A stretch of 64,000 nucleotides of DNA from NCBI RefSeq assembly GCF_000011245.1, contig NC_004193.1, positions 536,501-600,500 of the forward strand, in the 5' to 3' direction. Each line of letters opens with the position of its first letter. The first letter of the stretch is position 1. A model generated the notes under the pieces. That model saw only the letters and a list, made by a program, of their open reading frames with translations. It had not been told where the DNA came from and ran no database searches. Below are positions 13,619 to 16,941 of the stretch, piece after piece. The stretch is from Oceanobacillus iheyensis HTE831. GTDB lineage: Bacteria; Bacillota; Bacilli; Bacillales; Amphibacillaceae. The position numbers and the translations under genes are program-made.

Positions 13619-13653
13619 GGAGAAACCGAAATCGTCGGTTTCTCCATTTTTTT
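13619..13653 (+). terminator. Terminator of the GntR/ABC operon
   Basis: A perfect 10-bp stem (GGAGAAACCG at 13619-13628 with CGGTTTCTCC at 13636-13645) followed by seven T. Confidence 0.88.
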
Positions 13654-13852: not shown

Positions 13853-13880
13853 ATTAATCGCTATTAATCACGATTAATCC
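13853..13880. repeat. Three 10-bp-phased ATTAATC direct repeats upstream of ectA
   Basis: ATTAATC occurs at 13853, 13863 and 13873, exactly one helical turn apart, and ends 3 bp before the probable -35. Placement on one DNA face next to the promoter suggests an activator or regulator binding array. Confidence 0.65.
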
Positions 13881-13883
13881 GTT

Positions 13884-13912
13884 TTGACGAATTGGTAAAT
13901 TATTTATATTCT
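13884..13912 (+). promoter_or_regulatory. Probable ectABC promoter
   Basis: TTGACG (13884-13889), 17 bp, TATTCT (13907-13912). An overlapping TATATT (13905-13910) would give a 15-bp spacer. Transcription would begin about 13919, leaving a leader of about 32 nt before ectA. Confidence 0.55.
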
Positions 13913-13936
13913 AAAAGACGTGATTGTTCAAATAAT

Positions 13937-13953
13937 TTGGAGGTGAAAGCATC
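13937..13953 (+). promoter_or_regulatory. Ribosome binding site that points to an ATC start for ectA
   Basis: TTGGAGGTG (13937-13945) is a strong Shine-Dalgarno. At the usual 5-7 nt distance the only in-frame codon is ATC at 13951-13953. Between the upstream in-frame stop (TAA at 13933) and the conserved EctA core there is no in-frame ATG, GTG or TTG. Confidence 0.65.
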
Positions 13954-14508
13954 ACTACGATTTTAGATGTTGCTGAAAAGTTAAAGGTAGATACGGATGA
14001 GTATTACTTTAGAAGACCAACAAAAGAAGATGGGGGTCCCGTTTGGGAGCTAGTTAGAGAGATAGGAAATTTAGATTTAAATTCATCGTATAGTTATGTA
14101 TTATGGTGCGAAGTTTTCGCAGAATCTTCCATCGTCGTAGAGCATAAAGAAACACAACAAATTGTCGGATTTATTTCGGGATTTATGCATCCTGAAAAGG
14201 AAGATACCCTCTTTATATGGCAGGTTGCCGTTTCTTCAACACAAAGAGGAAAAGGATTAGCAACCAAGATGCTACTTCAATTACTTGAGTGGAACGAGTC
14301 GGTTAATTTTATTGAGGCAACAGTTGCCCCTTCAAATAAACCATCCAATTACTTGTTCCTAGGATTAGCAAGAAAAATTCATACAAACTGGAAAATAAGC
14401 GATTATTTTAAAACAGATCATTTTCCAGCTAAAGATGAAGAACATGAAGAGGAACTACTTTTTAGAATAGGGCCAATGAGAAAAAATAAAAATAAAAGGA
14501 TGATATAA
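13951..14508 (+). CDS. ectA: L-2,4-diaminobutyrate N-acetyltransferase
   Basis: EctA acetylates 2,4-diaminobutyrate, the second step of ectoine synthesis. Read from 13951 the product is 185 residues, the normal EctA length, with the conserved FRRPTKEDG near residue 20, [14 protein letters not shown] near 45-58, and the GNAT acetyl-CoA motif QRGKGLATK. The first in-frame ATG (14185) would remove 78 residues, including these conserved blocks, so it cannot be the true start. The start codon therefore appears to be ATC, with GGAGG 7 nt upstream. The stop overlaps the ectB ATG (TAATG). A sequence error or recent mutation of ATG remains possible. Confidence 0.88.
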
Positions 14509-15788
14509 TGACAACGATTGTTGATAAAGCCCGGAATGATATGGCAGTATTTGAAGAAATGGAATCAGCGGTAAGAAGCTATAGTCGCGGATGGCCAGTA
14601 GTATTTGAAAAAGCGAAAGGCTATAAGCTGTGGGATAAAAATGGAAATGAGTATATTGACTTCTTTGCTGGGGCAGGTGCACTAAATTATGGCCATAATC
14701 CAAGTGAAATGCAAAAAGTCATGATTGATTATATACAAAATGATGGTGTTATTCATAGTCTTGATATGGCTACGGCACCGCGTAAAAAATTCTTAGAGTC
14801 ATTTAATGAAATAATTTTAAAACCACGTAATATGGATTATAAAGTAATGTTCCCTGGTCCTACAGGTACGAATACGGTTGAAAGTGCTTTAAAAATTGCT
14901 CGTAAAGTAACAGGACGAGATACGGTAATTGGTTTTACAAATGCGTTTCACGGAATGACAATCGGTTCCCTATCGGTTACAGGTAATTCCTTTAAACGTA
15001 ATGGAGCTGGAATACCGTTAAATCATGCAATTTCTATGCCATTTGATCAATATGTAGATGAGCAAGATTCAATTGCATATATTGAACGTTTCCTAGAGGA
15101 TTCTGGAAGTGGAGTAGCACTACCAGCTGCATTTATTCTAGAAACAGTTCAAGGAGAAGGTGGAATTAACGCTGCCCGTCTTGAATGGGTGAAAAAAATA
15201 GAAGAAATTTGCAGAAAATGGGATATTCTACTAATCATTGATGATGTCCAGGCAGGATGTGGAAGAACGGGTACATTCTTTAGCTTTGAAGAAGCAGGAA
15301 TCAACCCAGATATAGTTTGCCTGTCAAAATCAATTGGTGGAGTTGGGTTGCCAATGGCAATCACATTGATTAAACCTGAATTTGATCAATGGGGACCTGG
15401 TGAACACAACGGTACATTCCGTGGAAATAACCTTGCATTTTTAGCAGCTACAGAAGCATTAAACAATTGGAAAACGGATGCATTCTCTCAAAATATTAAG
15501 AAAATGAGTTCTCTATTCCAAGAGAGAATGAAACGCATCGTAGAAAAGTTTCCTGAATTAAATGCAGATTTAAGAGGTAGAGGCTTAATGCTTGGTATTG
15601 GGGTTCATGTAGATGGACTTGCAGGCGAAATTTGCGCGGAAGCATTTTCTAGAGGTTTAATTCTTGAGACATCCGGAGCGAAGGATGAAGTTGTTAAATT
15701 CCTTCCGCCATTAATTATTGATGAAGATGGTATTGAAAAAGGAATGGACATCTTAGAAGAAAGTATTCAAGCAGCACTAGAGAAATAA
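14508..15788 (+). CDS. ectB: Diaminobutyrate--2-oxoglutarate transaminase
   Basis: A 426-residue class III PLP aminotransferase that converts aspartate semialdehyde to 2,4-diaminobutyrate using glutamate, the first committed ectoine step. Visible motifs are [25 protein letters not shown], the [11 protein letters not shown] segment, and the PLP-lysine context LSKSIGG. The length matches EctB (about 420-430). It is translationally coupled to ectA through TAATG, with AAAGGA upstream, and followed by ectC after 15 bp. Confidence 0.95.
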
Positions 15789-15803: not shown

Positions 15804-16190
15804 ATGATCGTAAAATCATTAGAAGACATTCAAGGTACAGAGGATCATCAAAAAGGGGAAACATGGGAAAGCAGACGTTTTGTTTTAAATAAAGACAATG
15901 TTGGCTTTAGCCTTAACGATACGATTATTAAGGCAGGAACAGAAAGCTACTTCTGGTACAAAAATCATATTGAAGCAGTGTACTGCATCGAAGGTGAAGG
16001 GGAAGTAGAGAAAAAAGATACTGGTGAGGTATGGCAGTTGAAGCCAGGAACGATGTATCTTTTAAATGATAACGATAAGCACTATTTACGTGCAAAAACT
16101 CAAATGCGTATGGTATGTGTGTTCAACCCTGCGTTAGTAGGAACGGAAACACATGATGAAGATGGGGTATACCCATTATTAGCTGAATAA
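15804..16190 (+). CDS. ectC: L-ectoine synthase
   Basis: A 128-residue cupin that cyclises N-gamma-acetyl-diaminobutyrate to ectoine. The start MIVKSLEDIQGTEDH and the beta-barrel segment IEAVYCIEGEGEVE are typical of EctC. AAGGAGG lies upstream. It is the last gene of ectABC and is followed by a terminator. No hydroxylase (ectD), dedicated aspartokinase or EctR-type regulator is adjacent. Confidence 0.95.
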   Translation: MIVKSLEDIQGTEDHQKGETWESRRFVLNKDNVGFSLNDTIIKAGTESYFWYKNHIEAVYCIEGEGEVEKKDTGEVWQLKPGTMYLLNDNDKHYLRAKTQMRMVCVFNPALVGTETHDEDGVYPLLAE

Positions 16191-16329: not shown

Positions 16330-16941
16330 ATGGCTCCACGAATTTCTGATGAAGAAAAAGAAGCACGCAGAGAACATTTATTGGAATCTGCTTTGGAGTG
16401 TTTCTCCGCCAAGGGATACTATGCATCAACAGTCGACGATATAGTTCGATATTCGAATTTAAGTAAGGGATCAGTCTACAACTACTTCAAAAGCAAGGAA
16501 GAAATTTTTATTCATTTGCTTCAGAAAAAACGTCAGGAAATGGTAGAAGAGCTTACGATTAAATTAGCAAAAATCGATAGTCCACTAGAAAAACTGAAAT
16601 ATTGGATCCGAGAAGATATTCCGTACAGTCTGGAAAAGAAAAAATTTATGCGTGTACATGTTGAGTTTTGGTTATATTCCACAGACTCACCAGAAGTTCA
16701 ACATATTTTAGTTGAACGGTTTGATGATATGTTTGGATTGACGAAAGAGATTATTGAGCAAGGACAGAAATTAGGGGAAATCAAGCCAGATATAGATGCT
16801 GAGGCAGCTTCATCTATGTTTTGGTCCTTGCATGATGGAATTTGGTTACACGCTGTTATTGGTTATGACGAGGCGAAGTTAGAGGCAAGTATTAAAGAAA
16901 TGGAAAGCGTGCTTATCACATATTTAACAGCAAATGCCTAA
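16330..16941 (+). CDS. TetR/AcrR-family transcriptional regulator
   Basis: This 203-residue protein has an N-terminal TetR helix-turn-helix (residues about 12-58: LLESALECFSAKGYYASTV, LSKGSVYNYFKSKEEIF) and an all-helical ligand/dimerisation domain with AASSMFWSLHDGIW near 165-180, as in YerO/FadR-like TetR proteins. AGAGGTG precedes the ATG. It stands between ectABC and a 40-residue ORF that carries a second copy of the same operator-like palindrome, so it probably controls itself and that ORF. Confidence 0.85.
   Translation: MAPRISDEEKEARREHLLESALECFSAKGYYASTVDDIVRYSNLSKGSVYNYFKSKEEIFIHLLQKKRQEMVEELTIKLAKIDSPLEKLKYWIREDIPYSLEKKKFMRVHVEFWLYSTDSPEVQHILVERFDDMFGLTKEIIEQGQKLGEIKPDIDAEAASSMFWSLHDGIWLHAVIGYDEAKLEASIKEMESVLITYLTANA

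Follow-up and report, generated by a model that had tools for sequence, protein, structure and literature searches.

The best start for ectA in Oceanobacillus iheyensis HTE831 is the ATC codon at position 13951. Judged from sequence comparison, the AUC/AUU start of this gene is real, is conserved over most of the family, and is a larger phenomenon than first stated. We consider it likely that EctA is initiated at this AUC by mismatched initiator tRNA with the support of an extended Shine-Dalgarno (SD) site, and that the weak start has been kept, probably as a translational throttle.

The ectA locus of strain HTE831

The window (the whole stretch of DNA that was analysed, 64,000 nt) carries ectA at 13951..14508 (+ strand, 185 codons plus TAA), ectB at 14508..15788 (+ strand, ATG start), and ectC, which codes for ectoine synthase, at 15804..16190 (+ strand, ATG start). 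The three genes adjoin each other in one gene set, and the stop codon of ectA shares bases with the start codon of ectB as TAATG (14506-14510). Immediately 3' of ectC (16330-16941) lies a gene for a TetR-family regulator with a match to a BetI-type C-terminal domain.

Direct reading of the start region reveals an in-frame stop codon TAA (13933..13935, + strand) upstream of the ectA start and the extended SD site GGAGGTGA (13939..13946, + strand), which is separated by 4 nt (AAGC) from ATC-ACT-ACG at 13951. The ATC (13951..13953, + strand) is assigned as start codon based on its SD spacing, 7 nt from GGAGG, and on the family comparison described below. The first in-frame ATG (14185..14187, + strand) is located 78 codons 3' of this ATC, and the frame between TAA 13933 and ATG 14185 is devoid of ATG, GTG, and TTG codons (direct reading, 90 codons listed). 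If translation began at ATG 14185, 78 residues would be lost, among them FRRPTKEDG and LDLNSSYSY. Reading from ATC 13951 gives a full-length EctA (diaminobutyrate acetyltransferase). It matches profile TIGR02406 above the curated cut-off (176.2 bits vs. 120.6), with profile positions 1-156 of 157 covered by EctA residues 20-176, and aligns with the solved EctA chain 6sk1 from residue 12 onward. Three claims of the earlier note were thus borne out: that no canonical codon occurs in frame before 14185, that the internal ATG would cost 78 residues and the conserved blocks, and that reading from ATC yields full-length EctA with an SD spacing of 7.

The chance occurrence of such a motif was assessed in the single-contig genome (3,630,528 bases). 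GGAGGTG-N4..6-AT[CT] occurs 29 times, compared to 51 times for a reversed-pattern control, so the motif itself is not enriched. Among these 29 sites, ectA alone stands at the head of an open frame of 60 or more codons that is free of canonical codons between codons -3 and +29 and lies outside longer frames. One other site (L286) also lacks canonical codons and has 116 open codons upstream of it. The earlier note had cited infC as a parallel for an AUU/AUC start, and this proved apt: infC of the same genome (L293, G000:C1:2182955-2183164, minus strand) reads GGAGGTGG-CTGGCT-ATT-AGC-AAG-GAT-ATG, with an apparent ATT start and an in-frame ATG four codons after it.

Promoter, leader, and upstream elements

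A sigma-A-type promoter-like site (TTGACG-17-TATTCT, 13884..13912, + strand) is predicted upstream of ectA and would result in a leader of about 30 nt. With three promoter-like sites found against 2.7 expected from shuffles, this site is not significant by itself. Among the 73 loci of the main group (see below), TTTTGACG is present within 110 nt 5' of the ectA start in 56. A terminator-like hairpin is located 5' of the ect unit (13619..13645, + strand; one found vs. 0.2 expected). The ectA leader shows no notable structure beyond that of shuffled sequences (fold z-score 0.81, not unusually stable). This, together with the predicted leader length, would leave little room for a riboswitch or a leader peptide.

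Three direct repeats of ATTAATC with an exact 10-bp period (13853-13879) end 4 bases 5' of the -35 element TTGACG at 13884. TTTAATC-like elements (loose pattern) precede TTTTGACG by up to 14 nt in 28 of the 56 loci which have it. The ATTAATC repeats look like a candidate regulator site for ectABC.

Start codons of ectA within the family

A search of 159 family genomes resulted in 123 ectA matches (E below 1e-30), of which 101 were analysed first and 22 later. Starts were initially called by a codon-blind rule, which scores the pairing with the 16S 3' end and the spacing but ignores codon identity. This rule failed on ectB, found ATG in just 22 of 80 loci from other families, and has no independent positive control; with these limits, its picks for the 101 family loci were ATT (52) and ATC (44; 96 together), followed by GTT (3), AGC (1), and ACA (1). 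Neither ATG nor ATA was picked at any of the 101 loci, even though 156 of the 914 Ile codons within the gene bodies are ATA. The SD spacing of the calls is 7 nt in 67 loci, 8 nt in 23, and 9 nt in 11.

In lineages with ATG starts, the codon-blind rule often misses the ATG by one codon because the SD spacing is longer there. A canonical-priority rule, which prefers canonical codons 3-13 nt from the strongest SD, was therefore adopted for later tables. For the 123 family matches (first plus later set), it returned ATT/ATC 98 times (88 + 10), GTT four times (3 + 1), and a canonical codon 18 times, namely GTG 14 (8 + 6), ATG 3 (1 + 2), and TTG 1 (0 + 1), with three matches left without a call (1 + 2). 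As its non-canonical labels are restricted to AT or GT followed by C or T, the rule cannot label ATA, and the absence of ATA starts rests on the codon-blind calls. A looser rule (SD of -7 kcal/mol or better at any place) assigned canonical codons to 23 of the 101 loci; it was dropped, since many of these assignments relied on weak SDs that occur by chance well away from the main SD.

At 85 of the 101 loci, ATT/ATC is called and no canonical codon occurs from 3 codons upstream to 2 codons downstream; in 40 of the 101, canonical codons are absent all the way to the conserved block. Of the 14 GTG loci, 12 (all from one Gracilibacillus-like genus) have the canonical codon directly before an ATT, as do all three ATG loci; at these loci the canonical codon may be the start. 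In three further loci of this genus (L326, L330, L335), GTT replaces the GTG before ATT and there is no canonical choice. In four loci of one genus group (L073, L074, L078, L324; including Pseudogracilibacillus auburnensis), GTT lies 9 nt past GGAGG, with no ATG, GTG, or TTG at this place; a start at this GTT would be no less unusual than the GTC start of sigR. One genome carries two adjoining ectA copies on the same strand (L069 and L368; G115:C8:122257-123519).

The earlier note had also considered a mutation or sequencing error, to be recognized by an ATG in re-sequenced DNA or in all close relatives. This was not borne out. A sister genome (G010; EctA 99% identical) has the identical ATC and the identical 125 nt upstream, and ATG occupies the start place in none of the 24 loci from the genus. 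Loci of this genus group match, among others, named records of Oceanobacillus salinisoli, O. halophilus, O. senegalensis, and Compostibacillus humi. By these comparisons, ectA has a conserved non-canonical codon at a place set by the SD, as in genes of the infC and sigR kind.

Start codons of ectA in other lineages

The search of 397 genomes from the order provided 103 ectA matches outside the family (E below 1e-30; 80 analysed first, 23 later). ATG is the most frequent call (64; 49 + 15), followed by ATT/ATC (29; 27 + 2, of which L112 and L144 look wrong on reading, with an ATG 10-12 nt from another SD) and TTG (5; 2 + 3), while five matches remained without a call (2 + 3). ATG can occupy the very same place as ATT, as illustrated by L146 with ATG-AAA-AGT-CAA vs. 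ATT-AAT-AGT-CAA.

A scan of named genomes with a single EctA protein as query retrieved no relative. An alignment-based scan confirmed at least 585 stretches, and the best 80 of these, of which 40 correspond to loci included in the counts above, have ATT (28), ATC (10), ATG (26), GTG (3), TTG (1), GTT (1), GTC (1), or no call (10). Named examples with ATT/ATC include Oceanobacillus, Virgibacillus, Lentibacillus, Halobacillus karajensis, H. halophilus AcN7-4, Thalassobacillus, Salirhabdus, Salinibacillus, Sediminibacillus, Texcoconibacillus, and Halalkalibacterium halodurans. An ATG start is seen in the named records of Marinococcus, Salsuginibacillus, Salibacterium, Alteribacillus, Shouchella, Anaerobacillus, and other Halobacillus species.

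At the class level, 46 of 398 genomes matched (E <= 1e-25). They provided at least 30 loci, three of which had already been analysed. Of the 27 loci examined, 11 have canonical starts and 8 have non-canonical starts according to a loose rule, while no call was obtained for the other 8. Among the eight non-canonical ones, several have long frames and a weak SD, and only L319 (GGAGGTGAAAACATC) is convincing. Three class-level relatives (L309, L314, L315) have GAGGAGGTGAT(A/G/C)AAT-CTG, which suggests a conserved CTG start. In L260 (Endozoicomonas record) and L261 (Salinisphaera record), the EctA frame is devoid of ATG, GTG, and TTG from the upstream stop to the conserved block, and an ATG is present in another frame. 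Paenibacillus sp. Soil522 (L241) has AAGGAGGTGA and then, 8 nt past the core, a possible ATA start.

Evolution of the start codon and the N-terminus

The main group consists of 73 loci (70 from the family and three others). Its start codons are ATC (43) and ATT (30), with A or G at the third base in none. Parsimony on the tree requires at least 13 exchanges between T and C but none that introduces G or A. Where Ile is conserved in these 73 loci (four columns), ATA accounts for 29 of 269 codons. This suggests, short of proof, that purines are selected against at the third base of the ectA start; the loci are related, so that naive counts overstate their independence, and T/C is the easiest kind of change. 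On the FastTree tree with 181 rows, canonical and pyrimidine-ended starts were exchanged at least 14 times. With 59 of its 174 inner branches open, all such change counts are minima on an uncertain tree.

Codon differences in the N-terminal stretch were counted by codon position. In the closest group of equal length (12 loci, 44 pairs), these are 117, 135, and 336, whereas the upstream stretch of the same pairs shows no third-position excess (388, 412, 411). The excess is weak in more distant groups (86, 86, and 93 for length 17; 786, 973, and 1170 for length 23), and the N-terminus of EctA therefore evolves fast; its overall pN/pS is 0.62. Between the called start and the conserved block, none of 2107 codons is a stop, compared to 199 stops among 3030 codons in the 30-codon stretch before the start, but the zero arises by construction, as starts were sought only past the last stop. 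In ectB of the same loci, 100 of 100 cases have a canonical codon no more than 8 codons away from the expected start. As a control this is weak, since a canonical codon will often be present by chance in a stretch of 17 codons. In the main group, the place of the start is conserved and, according to the calls made here, is occupied by neither AUG nor AUA.

Strength of the Shine-Dalgarno site

The median SD pairing in the 101 family loci is -17.65 kcal/mol. The median is also -17.65 kcal/mol for the loci with ATT/ATC/GTT starts (n = 118), against -13.4 kcal/mol (n = 60), a difference which is significant when uncorrected. On phylogenetically independent pairs, a stronger SD with an ATT/ATC start is not significant (six pairs, median p 1). 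An extended SD thus accompanies the weak codon in the window, but an SD strength above that of canonical-start lineages, and with it a stronger SD as compensation for the weak codon, is not supported on these pairs.

Alternative explanations

The most serious alternative accepts the ATT/ATC start but sees no regulatory use in it: an old, fixed weak start for which a strong SD compensates and which is rarely left. The strong SD pairing in ATT/ATC/GTT loci is in line with this, as is the repeated interchange of canonical and pyrimidine-ended starts on the 181-row tree. What speaks against it is that all of the third-base changes within the 73 loci are T/C and that none leads back to ATG by a single transversion, although T/C changes are the easiest to occur. 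We regard this explanation as possible but distinctly less probable than a start kept as a throttle.

That EctA starts further downstream, at ATT 13960 or, in relatives, at an in-frame ATG past the ATC/ATT, is improbable. A 99%-identical database protein (P0001, MLDVAEK) begins at ATT 13960, but this codon is 16 nt away from GGAGG. Between start and conserved block, 29 of the 73 main-group loci have an in-frame ATG, which could be a second or even the real start in these loci; however, 30 of the 73 have no canonical codon in this stretch and 14 more have only GTG or TTG, and the SD-spaced ATT/ATC is the sole codon common to all 73. Even less credible is translation of EctA by frameshifting or coupling from a short overlapping frame, starting at the GTG inside the SD or, in strain HTE831, at TTG 13937. 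An out-of-frame ATG, GTG, or TTG frame which begins up to 45 nt upstream and reaches the start does exist in 71 of the 73 loci, and the GTG within GGAGGTG is the first such codon in 19 of the 40 loci listed. This GTG, however, is itself part of the pairing with the anti-SD and lacks an SD at normal spacing, overlapping frames started by ATG occur in only 13 of the 73 loci, and lineages with AAGGAG or AAGGGAG as SD lack this GTG and still have the ATT. The idea that an ATG was misread in sequencing or has recently mutated, for which no supporting point was found, is refuted by the relatives: G010 is identical and 98 of the 123 family matches have ATT/ATC.

Annotation of EctA and practical implications

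Among 454 homologues, 20 proteins were examined for their database N-termini, and these disagree. For O. jordanicus (P0059, MYNQ), the ATT of L065/L199 was taken as Met, and the annotation of single genomes thus already makes use of an ATT start; O. saliphilus (P0004, MNIS) was probably annotated likewise. The SD is translated as part of P0005 and P0011 (GGES), whilst P0044 has been shortened to 154 aa. A published Virgibacillus salarius ectA clone of 480 bp was obtained with a forward primer beginning atgcctacaaaagatgatgg (PMC10630419); compared to L030-L032, this clone would start inside the conserved FRMPTKDDG block. The question of the ectA start has a practical side, seen in the database N-termini of EctA and in this clone. 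No discussion of a non-canonical ectA start was found in searches of the open-access literature.

Proposed role of the weak start

In the throttle reading preferred here, initiator fMet-tRNA would pair with the AU of AUC or AUU, leaving the third position mismatched. The extended SD GGAGGUGA, with GGAGG at a distance of 7 nt, would hold the 30S subunit on a short leader that lacks notable structure. IF3 would reject most complexes formed on AUC/AUU, and the rate of EctA synthesis would be a fraction of that obtained with AUG. The third-position pyrimidine (AUU/AUC, rarely GUU) would be kept in most of the family, probably by selection, so that the weak start would represent the working state of ectA. 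By analogy with sigR, infC, cvfC1, and ccpN, initiation of EctA is probably low and IF3-sensitive. It is plausible on the same grounds that AUC caps ectoine synthesis. As to purpose, we can but guess that the throttle limits costly ectoine synthesis, holds EctA at a low level compared to EctB and EctC, or serves a salt response.

A bolder version, which we judge unlikely, makes the AUC/AUU start itself a part of salt sensing, with EctA translation rising under osmotic stress before or beyond transcription. With higher intracellular salt, IF3 would then bind less tightly to the 30S subunit, or start codons would be discriminated less strictly there, and the pyrimidine would be kept since AUG would abolish the salt response.

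Comparison with known systems

For Marinococcus halophilus, a figure legend names ATG start codons (PMC2562377); its ectA is orthologous and also part of ectABC but has ATG, as do the Marinococcus loci surveyed here. In Listeria, infC starts with ATT and rnhC with ATC, and ATT was the weakest among ATG, ATA, and ATT (PMC13068326). These genes share the ATT/ATC start with ectA, and infC of strain HTE831 apparently has ATT as well, but infC encodes IF3 itself, whereas ectA is outside the translation machinery. Staphylococcus aureus cvfC1 (AUU) and ccpN (AUA) resemble ectA by a conserved non-canonical start and an extended SD (PMC13009471). Their non-canonical reporters reached about 10% of AUG. 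In rich medium, ccpN rose to as much as 30%, and the AUU of cvfC1 showed no effect of the medium. In contrast to ectA, cvfC1 is a small protein of little-known function and ccpN a transcriptional repressor; their starts were mapped by Ribo-Ret, and they are not known to have an osmotic link.

Genes with conserved non-canonical starts are few in the cited papers, and several are regulators or translation factors. Among them, ectA is unusual for its position at the head of a metabolic stress pathway and for the breadth of the feature across genera. Because its start spans most of the family and parts of others, with ATG orthologues available, start-codon discrimination can be tested under salt stress.

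The nearest proven case is Streptomyces sigR, which has a GTC start with the extended SD AGGAGGTG and for which repression by IF3 is shown experimentally and replacement of GTC by canonical codons results in overproduction (PMC5472188). Like ectA, sigR is a stress gene, the first of a co-transcribed set, with a pyrimidine-ended start and an extended SD; its start is conserved in the genus and was misannotated to a nearby canonical codon. The two differ in that sigR encodes a sigma factor, starts with GTC, and has its IF3 repression established by experiment, whereas ectA encodes a biosynthetic enzyme and has its unusual start in many genera.
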